30,833 nt of DNA from a virus. This document shows positions 8,658 to 30,701 of this stretch, one piece after another (the first letter of the stretch is position 1; the number at the start of each line of letters is the position of its first letter). The translations under genes were made by a program, and so were the position numbers. The stretch spans positions 1-30,833 of the IMG/VR virus record IMGVR_UViG_3300032006_000049, one strand, 5' to 3'. The notes beneath the pieces are model-generated. The model was not told the origin of the DNA, did no database searches, and worked only from the letters and a program-made list of their open reading frames with translations.

Positions 8658-9683
8658 CTAATCAATGAAGTTTCCTTGGGCATCTGTATCTGCTAATGAA
8701 ATTGCTGAACCTGTTGTTAATTGTTCATACTCGCCACCGACTTCACCTGTTCCTTCTCCTGTCTCAAACATTACTGCAGGGTCAGTTATTCTTTTTGAAG
8801 CAACTGCTTTTTTATCATAAGGAGGTAATGCAGCTATTACTCCAGCTCCTACCCCTACTGCTTCCGCTCCTAGTACAAATTTACCCCCTCTTGTTAAACC
8901 TTCTGTGGTTACTCGTTCAAATGGATAAACATCTTTTTTTATAGTTTCTTTTGTTGTTCTCAAGAAATGAGGTACCATTGCTACATACCAAGGTCTTTCG
9001 GTTACTTCTTTTACAACAGCGACATCTTTTCCTGTCTTAGATATTTTAGGAGCAGAATATTTAACTGTATCACCTGTTTTGCTTAACTTAGCTTTTTCTT
9101 TACCCAGTCGACTAATAATTCTTGCCGAAGCTGATGGTACTGTAGTTACTAATTCTTTACTAGTAGATAAAGGTCCTCTTTGAGCTACTTTTACTGCCTC
9201 ACTAGTTCCTTTTCCTAAACTAAAATTCTTTCCAAAAAATTCTTTAAAAGCAGATACAATATTTGTTCCACCTGTATTAGGTGTTATAACTTTTGGATTT
9301 GACAAAACTTTACTAGCCTTAGTTGCTGCATCATCAGCGTTTCTAAGTATAAGATTTTTAACTTCAGGAGAAGTTTTATCAAATACCCTCTTTGTTAGAG
9401 GTTCATATATTTTATTAACTGTAGAGTTTGCTTGTATAATTTTTTCATTAGCAATAACTCTTTTCCCAAATATTTCTCGTACATAACGAGCTTTACTTGG
9501 ATCAGTTATAACAACTGCGTAATCACTACCTATAATTTTTCCAGTAGATTTTTTAGCAACTTCTTTCGCACCTTTTTTGGTTATAGCTTTTGCTCCTTCC
9601 CTAACAAGGTAAGGAACTATTCTAAATGCAGCAAAACGTATACCGTGAATAACGGCTGCCGCTGCAAGAAATGGTACTGCCAT
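8658..9683 (-). CDS. First late gene, unknown 341-aa protein
   Basis: I do not recognise this 341-residue protein. It has a hydrophobic N-terminus (residues about 3-30, VPFLAAAAVIHGIRFAAF), then a long Lys/Ala/Ser/Thr-rich region of predicted mixed helix, a second hydrophobic Gly/Ala stretch near residues 267-287 (GGKFVLGAEAVGVGAGVIAA), and an acidic tail. It is the first gene after the strong minus-strand promoter at 9818-9846 and has an AAGGA ribosome site eight bases before its ATG. Composition and position suit an internal virion or ejection-type protein, but this is inference. Confidence 0.8.
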   Translation of the reverse strand: MAVPFLAAAAVIHGIRFAAFRIVPYLVREGAKAITKKGAKEVAKKSTGKIIGSDYAVVITDPSKARYVREIFGKRVIANEKIIQANSTVNKIYEPLTKRVFDKTSPEVKNLILRNADDAATKASKVLSNPKVITPNTGGTNIVSAFKEFFGKNFSLGKGTSEAVKVAQRGPLSTSKELVTTVPSASARIISRLGKEKAKLSKTGDTVKYSAPKISKTGKDVAVVKEVTERPWYVAMVPHFLRTTKETIKKDVYPFERVTTEGLTRGGKFVLGAEAVGVGAGVIAALPPYDKKAVASKRITDPAVMFETGEGTGEVGGEYEQLTTGSAISLADTDAQGNFID

Positions 9684-9710
9684 ATATTAATATCCTTAAT
9701 TTTAGTTAAA

Positions 9711-9730
9711 GGGAACCCTAGGGTGTTCCC
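9711..9730 (-). other. Leader hairpin upstream of first late gene
   Basis: An inverted repeat, GGGAAC (9711-9716) and GTTCCC (9725-9730), has an 8-base loop. In the minus transcript it is followed by UUU and lies about 28 bases before the start codon at 9683. It could stabilise the 5' end or modulate translation; it is too weak in U content to be a convincing terminator. Confidence 0.45.
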
Positions 9731-9817
9731 AGTTATTGGTGCAGATTAGTGATGACCCTTTGTGCATGTCGTATGCGTTTATGTTCGTGTGTGTCCTTTT
9801 AATGTGCACCTGATTCT

Positions 9818-9846
9818 ATTATACACACGATATAGGATTTTGTCAA
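9818..9846 (-). promoter_or_regulatory. Perfect-consensus sigma70 promoter for the late operon
   Basis: On the minus strand TTGACA (9841-9846) and TATAAT (9818-9823) are separated by exactly 17 bases, all 12 consensus positions matching. Transcription would start near 9811 and run left into the virion genes with a leader of about 128 bases. No other promoter of comparable quality was seen between here and the left edge. Confidence 0.85.
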
Positions 9847-9874
9847 GCTATATTTTTAGGTTTTTTATAGATGC

Positions 9875-9885
9875 GACAATTTGTC
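9875..9885. promoter_or_regulatory. Palindrome between divergent promoters (possible operator)
   Basis: GACAA-T-TTGTC is an 11-base perfect palindrome centred in the 51 bases that separate the two -35 boxes. Its placement suits a repressor or activator touching both promoters. No regulator gene was identified with certainty, so the role is inferred. Confidence 0.4.
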
Positions 9886-9897
9886 ATCATATTTCAT

Positions 9898-9926
9898 TTG
9901 ACAAAATCGAAAAGGAGCTGTATAAT
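9898..9926 (+). promoter_or_regulatory. Perfect-consensus sigma70 promoter on plus strand
   Basis: TTGACA (9898-9903) and TATAAT (9921-9926) are separated by 17 bases, again 12 of 12 consensus positions. The start would be near 9933. No coding frame of useful length follows on the plus strand before the terminator hairpin at 10392-10429, so it appears to drive a non-coding transcript, or to read through toward distant plus-strand genes. Confidence 0.85.
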
Positions 9927-9942
9927 AGTACCTAAGGGTACT
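9927..9942. promoter_or_regulatory. Palindrome at the plus-strand start site
   Basis: AGTACC-TAAG-GGTACT is a perfect 6-base inverted repeat with a 4-base spacer, touching the -10 box and spanning the expected start. It is either an operator or a 5' hairpin. A near copy (ATTACC-GCTA-GGTACT) occurs at 14618-14633 in the other main intergenic region, which favours a protein-binding site. Confidence 0.45.
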
Positions 9943-9999
9943 GCGGGGGGTTTTACATCTATACCTCAGAGAAATATACAAATCACCTCTAAGGATACC

Positions 10000-10040
10000 T
10001 TAGGGAATAGCCAGGGTATTGCATGAATATTATTCCCTAA
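10000..10040. repeat. Long perfect-stem hairpin in control region
   Basis: TTAGGGAATA (10000-10009) pairs perfectly with TATTCCCTAA (10031-10040). The 21-base loop can itself pair TATT with AATA. It is the strongest intramolecular structure noticed in the non-coding region and lies about 70 bases into the presumed plus transcript. Confidence 0.6.
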
Positions 10041-10204
10041 TGTATGGCTCGATGGTAGTTAACATTGCTTTTTGGTATTTTTAGGTTGAGTGGGTATATG
10101 AATACCTCCCACACCCCCCATGCACCCTGTGTCCCACTGTGTTTCTTTTAGTTTCCCTTAGGTTTCCTTAAGATCTATCTTAGGTGATATCAAAAATTAA
10201 TTTA

Positions 10205-10220
10205 GATCTTACTTAAGATC
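10205..10220. repeat. GATCTT-ACTT-AAGATC hairpin
   Basis: A perfect 6-base stem with a 4-base loop. The right arm belongs to one of three TTAAGATC words in the region (10168-10175, 10213-10220, 10410-10417). Confidence 0.45.
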
Positions 10221-10334
10221 ATTTAAATATATTTAGTTAACGCTTTTAGGTGCTGTAGGGATCGTTAAATTTTGTACCTATGAACCCTAATGCTCCACAA
10301 TGTAAACCAAGCTATGATTGATATTAATTAAGGG

Positions 10335-10362
10335 TATAATTTAGGTCAGTAATATTGACCTA
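10335..10362. promoter_or_regulatory. TATAAT followed by a 7-base inverted repeat
   Basis: TATAAT is at 10335-10340. TAGGTCA (10342-10348) and TGACCTA (10356-10362) form a perfect 7-base inverted repeat with a 7-base spacer. No good -35 box lies 16-18 bases before the TATAAT, so this is a weak promoter with an operator-like site at most, or an RNA hairpin. Confidence 0.35.
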
Positions 10363-10390
10363 TTTAGAGCTCAGTGTAAACTAAGAATAA

Positions 10391-10430
10391 AAAAAGCCCT
10401 CAAGATCCTTTAAGATCCTAAGGGCTTTTA
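10391..10430. terminator. Bidirectional hairpin terminator
   Basis: AAAAGCCCT (10392-10400) pairs with AGGGCTTTT (10421-10429), a 9-base stem, with direct repeats of AAGATCCT in the loop. On the minus strand seven or more U follow, making a strong terminator for the DUF932 gene. On the plus strand four U follow, a weaker stop for the transcript from 9933. Confidence 0.8.
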
Positions 10431-10454
10431 ATGTGTTAACTAGTATTAATTAAG

Positions 10455-12188: not shown

Positions 12189-12404
12189 TTATTTTTTAGA
12201 TCTTAATCTATATAGCTTTTTAATCCTATTTAATTCCAATATTTTAGCGTCATTAAAAGATTTATTTAGGCGGTTTAATCTTAACTCCGCTTTACGTTCA
12301 AAAATATCCGCAATAAAGAATAAGACACCACCTAAGACAGCTAGAAATATTCCGCCTATCAATAGAATATAAAAAATCTGATCCACTGGATTTAATTCAC
12401 TCAT
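12189..12404 (-). CDS. Small single-TM protein (71 aa)
   Basis: It has one strong membrane segment near residues 10-34 (IFYILLIGGIFLAVLGGVLF), then a basic, helical cytoplasm-type tail. Its ATG overlaps the preceding stop by four bases (ATGA), so it is coupled to the 63-residue gene. Unknown function; part of the chain of very small genes. Confidence 0.72.
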   Translation of the reverse strand: MSELNPVDQIFYILLIGGIFLAVLGGVLFFIADIFERKAELRLNRLNKSFNDAKILELNRIKKLYRLRSKK

Positions 12405-12592
12405 AAATTTTTATTTAACTTTTTATTTAACTTTTTAATGAACCACATATTTGACCATTTACTATCCATAAAATAAATAAAATGTGAAAACTTATAATTT
12501 TTATTTTTATATTTAATAATCTTAGGTAGTTTATTATTTTTTTTAAAATAGTTTTCAATTTGTAAGTTGATATCGTTCACAAATTCACTCAT
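12401..12592 (-). CDS. Small basic unknown protein (63 aa)
   Basis: This is a Lys/Asn-rich 63-residue protein with aromatic residues in its second half (HFIYFMDSKWSNMWFIKK). It is joined by ATGA overlaps both to the preceding 32-residue gene and to the following 71-residue gene. No domain recognised. Confidence 0.65.
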   Translation of the reverse strand: MSEFVNDINLQIENYFKKNNKLPKIIKYKNKNYKFSHFIYFMDSKWSNMWFIKKLNKKLNKNL

Positions 12593-12687
12593 CGATCTAA
12601 CTCATTTAAAAAAACTTTAAGACCTACTCCAAAACATACAATAAATAAAACTATAAAAATTATTATGCCTGTTATAATCGTTGTCAT
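12589..12687 (-). CDS. Very small single-TM protein (32 aa)
   Basis: ATG 12685-12687 follows the preceding gene's TAA with no gap, and the frame ends in an ATGA overlap with the next gene. The 32 residues begin MTTIITGIIIFIVLFIVCFG, one membrane segment, and end in a short charged tail (KVFLNELDR). The double coupling supports it as a real gene despite its size. Confidence 0.6.
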   Translation of the reverse strand: MTTIITGIIIFIVLFIVCFGVGLKVFLNELDR

Positions 12688-12873
12688 TTAATTACGTTCC
12701 ACTTTATAGGATCTTTTAGTTAATTTTGCTTTAAACCAATCATACTTTGAATTACTACACATATACATAATATAATTGTTAGGATCTTTAACTTCCTTAG
12801 ATCTAAATGCTTTTTTTCTTATAGCATTTTTAAAACATTTCTTATGATCTCTATCAAAAAAAATATTATTCAT
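12688..12873 (-). CDS. Small unknown protein (61 aa)
   Basis: I place the start at ATG 12871-12873 (MNNIFFDRDHKKC), because the six codons from a possible earlier ATG at 12891 overlap the end of the tiny gene before it. The protein is basic, with YMCSNSKYDWFKAKLTKR near the end. The next start codon follows its stop directly. No domain recognised. Confidence 0.6.
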   Translation of the reverse strand: MNNIFFDRDHKKCFKNAIRKKAFRSKEVKDPNNYIMYMCSNSKYDWFKAKLTKRSYKVERN

Positions 12874-12875
12874 AT

Positions 12876-12953
12876 TTAATTGAAGTACCATAAAAAAAAT
12901 AAACTTACAATAATAATAAATGGATAATAAAAATAAGGGTTATCTATAATCAT
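12876..12953 (-). CDS. Very small hydrophobic protein (25 aa), second of pair
   Basis: The frame reads MIIDNPYFYYPFIIIVSLFF and five more residues, almost entirely one membrane segment. The ATG overlaps the previous stop by four bases (ATGA), and the stop lies two bases before the next start. At this size it could arise by chance, but the exact coupling at both ends supports it. Confidence 0.45.
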   Translation of the reverse strand: MIIDNPYFYYPFIIIVSLFFLWYFN

Positions 12954-13027
12954 GTTATATATAAAGACATTGCGTATAAACTAATAACAAATAAAATAAA
13001 AATCATTAGTAAATAAAAGTTATACAT
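12950..13027 (-). CDS. Very small hydrophobic protein (25 aa), first of pair
   Basis: The frame reads MYNFYLLMIFILFVISLYAM and five more residues, one membrane segment. The ATG shares one base with the stop of the 85-residue gene (TAATG), and its own stop overlaps the next ATG (ATGA). Same caution and same support as for its neighbour. Confidence 0.45.
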   Translation of the reverse strand: MYNFYLLMIFILFVISLYAMSLYIT

Positions 13028-13284
13028 TAGCCCACCTTAAATAAGATCTTATTTGTTTTCGGATCAATTAATTTAAATTTTCTTGATGCCGTTCTTATAT
13101 CTTTTCTAAGAAAATCAAAGTACCTAATATAAATATATTTATAAATCTTATGCCTACCTATTTTGCATCCATTAATTTTAAGATCTAATACACCAAGTCT
13201 TTTTAGGTATTGTGGTTTTTTCTTTTTGTTTTTGTATTCCGCTTTATATTTAACGAATACTATTTTGTTCTCTAATTGTTTCAT
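13027..13284 (-). CDS. Basic unknown protein (85 aa), first gene of small-protein operon
   Basis: This 85-residue, strongly Lys/Arg-rich protein contains KIVFVKYKAEYKNKKKKPQ near the N-terminus and HKIYKYIYIRYFDFLRK in the middle. It looks like a small beta/alpha nucleic-acid-type protein, but no family is recognised. There is no ribosome site before the ATG; a TTGCAA-16-TATATT promoter places the expected transcription start at or next to the ATG. A better promoter lies further up (13331-13360). Confidence 0.68.
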   Translation of the reverse strand: MKQLENKIVFVKYKAEYKNKKKKPQYLKRLGVLDLKINGCKIGRHKIYKYIYIRYFDFLRKDIRTASRKFKLIDPKTNKILFKVG

Positions 13285-13290
13285 GCTTTT

Positions 13291-13318
13291 AATATAATAC
13301 TTTATTTTCTGATTGCAA
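13291..13318 (-). promoter_or_regulatory. Candidate proximal promoter, start codon at +1
   Basis: TTGCAA (13313-13318) and TATATT (13291-13296), 16-base spacer, on the minus strand. The -10 box ends six bases before the ATG at 13284, so the RNA would be leaderless. Confidence 0.35.
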
Positions 13319-13330
13319 GAATTATTTTGG

Positions 13331-13360
13331 ATCTTATTTAATATCGAAAAAGTCTGTCAA
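13331..13360 (-). promoter_or_regulatory. Candidate distal promoter of small-protein operon
   Basis: A perfect TTGACA (13355-13360) and TAAGAT (13331-13336) with an 18-base spacer on the minus strand. The -35 box lies inside an imperfect inverted repeat, CTGACACAGTTGACAG, that may be an operator. Confidence 0.5.
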
Positions 13361-13450
13361 CTGTGTCAGAGTGTCGCATCATTGAGCCTATCAAATAACA
13401 ATTCACATTTTAAAAACATCCTATTTAAGACAAATCTAAAAAGTGAGTGT

Positions 13451-13458
13451 GGTATACT
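13451..13458 (+). promoter_or_regulatory. Extended -10 promoter for the 58-aa gene
   Basis: TATACT (13453-13458) is preceded by TGG, the extended -10 signature; no good -35 is present at normal spacing. The core lies in a near-palindrome, GTGGTATACTAC. The start would be near 13465, about 38 bases before the ATG at 13503. Confidence 0.55.
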
Positions 13459-13502
13459 ACTTGTAATATAAATTTTATATTTATGTTAGAAAGGAGGTTA
13501 AT

Positions 13503-13679
13503 ATGGCTAGAAATAGTAAAAGAGATAGACGGCTTGTTGGAAACTACGATAAACAAGACAAGCAATTTTACTTCCTTATTCAAAAGTGGAATGGCGAAAC
13601 TTATGAAACAGTTAGCACTTTTGAAGCCGAAAGATGTGAAGTAAATGGTCTTAAAGAGCAATACAAAGACCAAGAATAG
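13503..13679 (+). CDS. Isolated 58-aa unknown protein with its own promoter and terminator
   Basis: A perfect ribosome site (AAAGGAGG) lies six bases before ATG 13503-13505. The 58-residue product begins MARNSKRDRRLVGNYDKQDK, continues with an aromatic strand-like middle (QFYFLIQKWNGETYETV) and ends with a charged helix. It is the only plus-strand gene between 9684 and 14811 that I could find. It has its own extended -10 promoter and a strong hairpin terminator 13 bases after the stop. A longer frame in another phase from 13447 is a shadow. A strongly expressed small protein that acts on the host soon after infection is a reasonable guess. Confidence 0.78.
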   Translation: MARNSKRDRRLVGNYDKQDKQFYFLIQKWNGETYETVSTFEAERCEVNGLKEQYKDQE

Positions 13680-29229: not shown

Positions 29230-29873
29230 TATTTTAACTCCTTATATGTATAATCGTAACTTCCTTCTTCATGTTCATCTGTAATCCATTTAGAAGTATC
29301 TTCAACTGACCATGTTTTTGTATTAACTAAACGGTTAATTAAATTCTCTGATGGATCTGCTGCTAGTGATGGATCAAAGGCTCTTAATCTATTATTTGGT
29401 TGTATAGCAAAATTACCTTCGTCTAATTGTATAACATGTCCACACTTATGTTGATCAGGTTTTTCTGAATAACCAAAGTTTAATTCATTATAATCCCCAG
29501 AACACCAATCAATAGTAAACAAATAAGTTCCTGTTCGTTTAACTTTACGTCTTGAGATGTATTCCATTTTACAACCTGCTAATTGATAGAAAGTTGTAAC
29601 CCCTACATTGTAGCTAAAGCTATCCCACATCATGAGTTCATTTAAAGGAAGTTCTTTAACTCCTGGTTTAGTACAGAAGGCAGAGATAGGTGCTCGCCAC
29701 CATAGCCCTCCGTCTTCCATCATGTAATGAAATAAGGGAACTTGTTTAGGTAAAGAACTAAATCCAAATATAACGCAATCAAAGTATTTATCGTGGGAAT
29801 CTTTTTGATCTCTTAGATAATTACCACGAACATAACATTCAATAATTGGTATATTTGCATTTAGGTAAGCCAT
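29229..29873 (-). CDS. Conserved marine-phage protein of unknown function (214 aa)
   Basis: This 214-residue protein contains IIECYVRGNYLRDQKDSHDK (about 10-29), FHYMMEDGGLWWRAPISAFC (about 48-67) and MMWDSFSYNVGVTTF. This pattern is very common in marine phage genomes, to my recollection, usually near lysis or virion genes, with no assigned role. It overlaps the endolysin end by 13 bases. Confidence 0.85.
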   Translation of the reverse strand: MAYLNANIPIIECYVRGNYLRDQKDSHDKYFDCVIFGFSSLPKQVPLFHYMMEDGGLWWRAPISAFCTKPGVKELPLNELMMWDSFSYNVGVTTFYQLAGCKMEYISRRKVKRTGTYLFTIDWCSGDYNELNFGYSEKPDQHKCGHVIQLDEGNFAIQPNNRLRAFDPSLAADPSENLINRLVNTKTWSVEDTSKWITDEHEEGSYDYTYKELK

Positions 29874-30310
29874 TCTTTATAATCCTTGCCGTCATAGATC
29901 AATGATTGTTTTCTATTATTATCTTTCGAGTATGAGCAGTGTACCCATCCGCTTGAAGGGTCATCTGAATTATAAAATTCTAGTATAAGTTGGTCGTATA
30001 TTAATTCATTCTTAATGAATTTAGCCAATGTTTTATTATCAACTCCAAACATTTCAAAGTCAGCTGCTTCTCCTTTTGCATGCTGGCTATTTGGGTTGCT
30101 GCCTATGGCAAGGCATAGATCTGCTGAACGATAACCTGAGGTAATAACCATAGGTTTACCAAAATGTCTACGTGTAGGTTCTAAAACCTGTAGACATAAA
30201 TCTGTCAGGCGTTCAATATGCTCTGGCGTAGGAGTATTATCAATACCCTTACGTGTAGCTGTTTGTGATTTTGTTAGTTCTTGTAAATTAAAGTGTCCGC
30301 TTAGTCTCAT
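29861..30310 (-). CDS. Endolysin, peptidase M15 family
   Basis: This 149-residue zinc peptidase would cut peptidoglycan cross-links at lysis. It shows VITSGYRSADLC, then SQHAKGEAADFEMFG with H77 and D84 as metal ligands, and GWVHCSY with H124 as the third, the M15A (HxxxxxxD...H) order. No signal peptide is seen, so export would need a holin. It follows the small membrane protein in the same direction. Confidence 0.9.
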   Translation of the reverse strand: MRLSGHFNLQELTKSQTATRKGIDNTPTPEHIERLTDLCLQVLEPTRRHFGKPMVITSGYRSADLCLAIGSNPNSQHAKGEAADFEMFGVDNKTLAKFIKNELIYDQLILEFYNSDDPSSGWVHCSYSKDNNRKQSLIYDGKDYKEWLT

Positions 30311-30365: not shown

Positions 30366-30701
30366 TTAGTTTCCCGAGTTAGATGTAAGGGGATTAGATG
30401 TGTTGACTTTAATTTCCTCTAGTTGTAGTTTAAGTAATTCAATTTCTTTTTCTAATACTGCATTTGCTTTTGCATTATTAGATATACCAGAAATATTCTC
30501 AGAAATCATCTTCTGATTATTACCTATTTGTTGTGCTAGAGGTGTAAGATCAGGACCTGTTGCTTCTGTTAAAGCAGTAAGTTTAGTTTGTATTTCACCA
30601 TACTTAACAAAGCCACCTCCAATTGCAACAATTGCTGCAATCAAAGCTGCTATTCCTGCAAGCTGATCTTTCAAATTAAATTTAGTTTTTTCTTTAGCCA
30701 T
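30366..30701 (-). CDS. Single-TM coiled-coil protein (possible holin or lysis accessory)
   Basis: This 111-residue protein has a basic start, one membrane segment (about 14-33, LAGIAALIAAIVAIGGGFVK), then a long periplasm-type coiled coil (about 35-100). Directly upstream of the endolysin, such an arrangement suggests a lysis role (holin-like or spanin-like), but a single N-terminal segment is not diagnostic. GGAG precedes the ATG by eight bases. Confidence 0.75.
   Translation of the reverse strand: MAKEKTKFNLKDQLAGIAALIAAIVAIGGGFVKYGEIQTKLTALTEATGPDLTPLAQQIGNNQKMISENISGISNNAKANAVLEKEIELLKLQLEEIKVNTSNPLTSNSGN

Follow-up and report, generated by a model that had tools for sequence, protein, structure and literature searches.

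SAR11 phages are very abundant, and a role is known for few of their early genes. Among the HMO-2011-type phages, HTVC033P belongs to subgroup IX, and the phages of subgroups VII-X possess no identifiable lysogeny genes and are perhaps obligately lytic (PMC9038755). In T7-like pelagiphages, a gene of a 61-aa family is followed, usually after a gene for a 51-57-aa membrane protein, by a GP88 gene, in several of them at the left end of the genome (gp1-gp3 of HTVC134P and gp01-gp03 of HTVC120P). The same gene order is found in gp27-gp30 of Bylgja. Outside the pelagiphages, the small early membrane protein Gp11 of phiNM1 binds MurG and DivIC (PMC11237401).

The window analyzed here is the whole of the virus record IMGVR_UViG_3300032006_000049 (30,833 nucleotides, 30.8 kb). 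Judged from its sequence, it is a genome fragment from a pelagiphage of the HMO-2011 type, close to HTVC033P, because its TerL shares 76% identity with the TerL of this Pelagibacter phage and its portal region is similar in DNA to the same phage. Like the T7-like left end, the window has the order 61-aa family, small membrane gene and GP88, with little space between the genes. However, the membrane protein of the T7-like phages belongs to the 51-57-aa family, which is unrelated in sequence to the 32- and 71-aa proteins, the 85-aa gene of the window is absent there, and the GP88 subgroup is phrog_1617 in the T7-like phages and phrog_1392 in the window. HTVC033P shares with the window the HMO-2011-type group and the presence of GP88 (gp16), whereas its GP88 precedes the primase gene and is encoded on the plus strand; a relative of the 61-aa protein was not found there.

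Chain of Seven Frames

As shown in Table 1, seven ATG frames of 85, 25, 25, 61, 32, 63 and 71 codons follow each other on the minus strand from 13284 to 12189. A preliminary description had proposed that these frames are linked stop to start by TAATG, ATGA or zero- and two-base junctions, and all of them were recovered as claimed. The frame of 61 aa was 67 aa in the ORF listing, starting from an earlier ATG (12891), and the homologues agreed with the 61-aa start. The regularity of the junctions had been considered unlikely by chance, and Markov simulations bore this out. The chain was scored as the longest run of ATG frames of at least 20 codons with junctions of -4 to +2 nt. The longest chain in the region was 7, compared with a maximum of 3 when this 1.1 kb was simulated 6000 times with a Markov model. 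When the whole 30.8-kb strand was simulated 300 times, the longest chain was 5 and was reached once. Furthermore, no chain of comparable length was found on the opposite strand of the region. The chain of seven is far beyond chance, and the feature is real.

Table 1. Positions of the operon components and of the lysis genes in the window.
Feature	Position	Strand	Remarks
Candidate promoter region	13285-13502	minus	TTGACA-18-TAAGAT at 13360-13331
85-aa frame	13284-13027	minus	first gene of the operon
25a, 25-aa frame	13027-12950	minus	TAATG junction, 1-nt overlap with 85-aa gene
25b, 25-aa frame	12953-12876	minus	ATGA junction, 4-nt overlap with 25a
61-aa frame	12873-12688	minus	2-nt gap after 25b
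32-aa frame	12687-12589	minus	0-nt gap after 61-aa frame
63-aa frame	12592-12401	minus	ATGA junction with 32-aa frame
71-aa frame	12404-12189	minus	ATGA junction with 63-aa frame
GP88 protein, Cys-rich, 219 aa	12149-11490	minus	PF17338, E = 5e-22
DUF932-like protein, 309 aa	11384-10455	minus	last gene; PF06067, E = 2.5e-9
Intrinsic terminator-like stem, 17 pairs	10429-10392	minus	would close the operon; from sequence only
Endolysin	29861-30310		Peptidase_M15_3, E = 1e-21; PHROG lysis, E = 2e-41
Weakly Rz-like protein	30366-30701		like the endolysin, about 17 kb from the operon

At the six inner starts (25b, 61, 32, 63, 71 and GP88), no Shine-Dalgarno match of at least 4 was present, whereas 26 of the window's 40 other starts had one (P = 0.004). 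The TAATG at the start of 25a was preceded by the Shine-Dalgarno-like AAGGTGG. Overlapping or abutting stops and starts without Shine-Dalgarno sites fit a restart by the terminating ribosome, to which GP88, lying 39 nt downstream, would conform less well.

Membrane Character of the Small Proteins

The membrane location of the small proteins was predicted from hydropathy. The best 19-residue hydropathy means were 2.54 for 25a, 1.54 for 25b, 2.99 for the 32-aa protein and 2.84 for the 71-aa protein. The view that these four consist of little more than one membrane segment held for 25a and the 32-aa protein, while 25b was borderline. For the 71-aa protein it was loosely drawn, since the N-terminal membrane segment is followed by a basic tail of about 35-40 residues, which would be cytoplasmic by the positive-inside rule. 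The 85-, 61- and 63-aa proteins are soluble and basic, with net charges of +20, +11 and +10, respectively.

In A+T-rich sequence, the codons are often read as hydrophobic residues. A hydropathy of at least 2.4 was reached by about 0.5% of the 22-60-codon frames in simulated sequence of the same composition and by 6% of the mechanical ORFs in the real window. For a threshold of 1.6, the proportions for frames of 22-60 codons were 25% of the mechanical ORFs in the real window and 9% in simulated sequence. Membrane character by itself proves little, because short hydrophobic ORFs are common in A+T-rich DNA such as this window.

The expectation that such membrane frames fall below annotation cut-offs was confirmed in relatives, where a frame of 27 aa in HTVC309P and one of 55 aa in MedDCM-OCT-S46-C10 were unannotated. 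These membrane microgenes, at L006 1230-1313 (27 aa) and L061 3188-3355 (55 aa), each lie beside a 61-aa-family gene and are missing from the annotations of OR420751 and AP013545.

Candidate Promoter Region, Downstream Genes and Terminator-like Stem

The operon appears to be larger than the seven frames, extending from a promoter region through the frames, GP88 and a DUF932-like gene to a terminator. The candidate promoter region diverges from a plus-strand gene of 58 aa. It was conserved before the 85-aa homologue in L023 (72% over 242 nt) and L014, and in L011 it was conserved before an extra small gene. Since the promoter-like sites of the window were not enriched over shuffles (26 vs 30.9), the promoter call is based on this conservation. 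The diverging 58-aa gene (13503-13679, plus strand) has a Shine-Dalgarno match of 8 and one homologue, with 40% identity, at the same place in L023.

The GP88-like Cys-rich gene into which the group was said to lead is indeed there, starting 39 nt after the 71-aa frame. It is a clear member of the GP88 family (79.3 bits against the PF17338 profile, with a curated cut-off of 24.4), but it lies outside the seven frames. GP88 was 69-86% identical in close relatives, with dN/dS of 0.13-0.16 versus the window. The DUF932-like protein showed 70-84% identity in relatives and came after GP88 wherever both were covered. Both genes are under purifying selection.

The 3' stretch adjoining the terminator-like stem was conserved directly after the DUF932-like gene in relatives, and the stem itself is terminator-like in both directions. 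Beyond it, sigma-70-like promoter-like sites diverge at 9898 (plus) and 9846 (minus), matching the consensus at all 12 positions; the site at 9846 would serve leftward genes beyond the stem. The interval 9684-10454 holds about 770 bases without a convincing gene, of which about 420 bases were 75-78% conserved (L001, L011, L021 and L038). An untranslated plus-strand RNA of about 500 bases is possible there, and an Rfam match was not found for it.

Conservation of the Small Genes

The 85-aa protein had homologues in six other contigs, with 54-62% identity where aligned, and its gene showed dN/dS of 0.13-0.28 (relatives vs window). No match to it was found in phage records. The 61-aa 'YIMYMCS' family had relatives in 27 viral loci, T7-like pelagiphages included, and a scan of bacterial genomes detected none. 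The dN/dS of the 61-aa gene was 0.17-0.35 (relatives vs window). Both the 85- and the 61-aa genes are clearly under purifying selection.

Stops and frameshifts were looked for inside the two short conserved genes. The 32-codon gene was intact and in frame in all six contigs covering it, the window included, and 20 of its 32 columns were invariant. Against the distant L014, its amino-acid changes were fewer than neutral (P = 0.003-0.016), while close pairs were not significant; purifying selection on this gene is seen in the most divergent comparisons only. The result for 25b was mixed. The window and two contigs (L001 and L024) had an intact copy, which in those contigs was 72-75% identical and had the conserved start M[IL]IDNPY, but in L011 and L013 a short duplication had shifted its C-terminus. 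Moreover, 25b was absent from L014, and its dN/dS of 0.20 was not significant (P about 0.15).

Homologues of the 71-aa protein, 82-86 aa in length and diverged, occupied the same place in L001, L011, L013, L014 and L038. Homologues with a C-terminal Cys-rich tail (CYCKRCQANR or similar) lie at L001 9683-9937, L013 6476-6724 and L014 6289-6549; the copy in the window has no Cys motif. In L001, the stretch 9395-9682 (with equivalents in L011 and L038) separates the 32-aa gene from the 84-aa gene by about 290 bases. It takes the place of the window's 63-aa frame and contains a possible hairpin and a TTG-started frame of 40 aa.

No homologue of 25a was found in any relative, and it is an extra unit compared with L001. 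The 63-aa frame was present in this window only, with no relative found in viral contigs. Other small genes occurred in the relatives, of 65 aa in L001 and L013 and of 74 aa in L011, while L020 carried a 59-aa membrane protein plus genes of 93 and 66 aa instead; in L011, L013 and L038, a further small gene of 71 aa preceded GP88. An isolate with the complete cassette was not found. The 85-, 61-, 32- and 71-aa genes are well supported as coding, and 25b, which is weakly constrained, is probably coding, whereas 25a and the 63-aa frame could be of recent origin, neutral or without function. Given the conservation frame by frame and the differing small genes in relatives, the operon consists of a stable core (85-61-32-71-GP88-DUF932) and a rapidly exchanged rest. 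By sequence and gene content, it has the marks of an accessory operon, namely a predicted promoter and terminator of its own and gene gain and loss round a conserved core.

The 61-aa Family and GP88 in Other Pelagiphages

The 51-aa membrane family of the T7-like pelagiphages showed dN/dS of 0.04-0.21, which means strong constraint. HTVC309P has a 27-aa membrane frame in place of the 51-57-aa protein. The small membrane gene is dispensable in the T7-like group, because it is absent from the loci L018, L019, L035, L036 and L047. Profile comparison found no relationship between the 32-aa protein and the T7-like 51-aa membrane protein, and the 71-aa protein shared with the latter only 14 columns of hydrophobic similarity.

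A tiny membrane ORF directly adjoined GP88 in 15 of 31 loci, whereas of 104 long control ORFs only 8 had such a neighbour (P = 2e-6). Many of these loci are closely related to each other, and among the controls are structural genes, which come from regions poorer in small genes. By lineage, grouped by eye, such an ORF lay beside GP88 in 7 of 19 (P = 0.002). The cases include HTVC035P, HTVC023P, CRP-171, DC31 and L002, and the sequences were unrelated. The 12 GP88 lineages without a tiny membrane neighbour included HMO-2011, HTVC115P, HTVC024P and CRP-603.

Searches for Function

The cassette of tiny membrane-protein genes is real and leads into GP88, but its purpose was not named by Pfam, PHROGs or PADLOC, which gave a meaningful match for none of the small proteins. 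PADLOC defence profiles found no match among the nine proteins of the region, and a search of one literature library for pelagiphage small membrane proteins found none. The cassette may serve to change the envelope, to exclude other phages or to counter a defence, as had been suggested.

The model of the 61-aa protein had a predicted alpha-beta-beta-beta fold (pLDDT 87). It found no match among solved structures, while in the viral library the only hits that stood out were two relatives and a protein of 64 aa (33% identity, E = 0.03). We know of no function for the GP88 (PF17338) family. The GP88 model (mean pLDDT 58, poor) had no match in the PDB, and a sequence search of solved structures gave nothing credible. 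The Cys pattern of GP88 was also considered as radical-SAM-like, but these structure and sequence searches did not support this.

Proposed Role and Alternatives

The locus is tentatively explained as a fast-evolving host-takeover operon with coupled translation that acts at the inner membrane, with a probability of roughly 0.45. Its own promoter region would drive transcription as far as the terminator, apart from the late genes. On reaching the end of one frame, a ribosome would begin again at the next start, which overlaps that end or abuts it. Shortly after infection, the single-pass proteins would enter the inner membrane of Pelagibacter and bind membrane proteins of the host, damping or redirecting functions of its envelope; exclusion of a second phage may be among the effects. 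Together with them, GP88 and the basic soluble proteins (85, 61 and 63 aa) would act in host takeover. We infer that the upstream region is the promoter used, that the proteins insert into the membrane, and what their host targets and effect are. The proposed parallel is phiNM1 Gp11, likewise a small phage membrane protein acting on host membrane proteins; however, its host belongs to another phylum, and the likeness is without demonstrated homology. Early timing may be expected by analogy with a single distant homologue of GP88, gp33 of HTVC027P (38% identity), which falls in a cluster with high expression at 6-9 h, an early to middle stage (PMC12753301).

Superinfection exclusion and a partnership with GP88 are the main specific forms of this host-takeover reading. 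In T4 and P22, the exclusion proteins Imm and SieA block DNA entry or tail penetration, and the tiny inner-membrane proteins might block related phages in the same manner. Small membrane proteins within an operon with its own promoter, the fast gene turnover among relatives, and the occurrence, in different phages of the same host genus, of small membrane genes that are unrelated yet occupy one and the same position next to the 61-aa and GP88 genes would all suit exclusion. However, a sequence match with known exclusion proteins was not found, and prophage immunity is not the motive, because the HMO-2011-type subgroups VII-X carry no lysogeny genes (PMC9038755). In addition, gp33 of Bylgja (L009 6054-6224), named a 'superinfection exclusion protein', had no membrane segment on reading and is not a cassette gene; that label itself looks doubtful. 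Exclusion is possible but rather unlikely as the specific role. As a partner of GP88, together with the 61-aa protein, the tiny membrane protein would anchor or regulate GP88 at the membrane and be swapped for unrelated ones between phages. The excess of membrane ORFs next to GP88, by locus and by lineage, argues for this, whereas the 12 lineages without such a neighbour, the non-independence of the loci, the count of lineages by eye and the structural genes among the controls argue against it, and we regard the partnership as improbable. Also unlikely is the reading that the 61-aa 'YIMYMCS' protein, the tiny membrane protein and GP88 form one module moving between unrelated pelagiphage groups, with the membrane partner freely exchanged.

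Part of the chain could also have no function at all, with 25a, the 63-aa frame and perhaps 25b being incidental products of A+T-rich sequence. The lack of relatives of 25a and the 63-aa frame, the frame-shifting duplication tolerated in 25b, and the quarter of 22-60-codon mechanical ORFs of the window that reach a hydropathy of 1.6 are in agreement with this. On the other hand, each frame opens at the stop of the frame before it and closes at the start of the frame after it, a chain that simulation did not reproduce, and 25a has a Shine-Dalgarno-like site. Incidental origin is a minority possibility, but one of some weight. The remaining explanations are much weaker. The size and single membrane segments of the small proteins would suit pinholins, and a lysis cassette of holins, pinholins or antiholins was considered. 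This role was rejected as very unlikely, because the endolysin gene is not adjacent but about 17 kb away, and the operon has no lytic enzyme. Tiny hydrophobic toxins restrained by antisense RNA, as in type I toxin-antitoxin systems, are equally improbable. The hydrophobic peptides of 25-32 aa are like Hok/TisB-type toxins in size, and promoter-like sites occur on the opposite strand at 12747 and 12921. However, such sites did not exceed those of shuffled sequence, no Rfam antitoxin RNA was found in the window, and the genes, in contrast to type I loci, form a coupled part of a longer operon.

Conclusions

Phage accessory operons of small genes are already known, and the present one adds protein families that are new and an association that may be new. 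In SAR11 phages, conserved genes of 25-57 codons are present below the usual length cut-offs. The 32-, 51- and 61-aa families and GP88 are small, defined targets for studying phage action on a host with a minimal envelope and a minimal genome. If the association with GP88 holds, it would offer a handle on a widespread family without known function, and if the exchangeable module is true, it would be a membrane-anchored GP88 system that serves phages of the most abundant marine bacteria in host takeover or in counter-defence.
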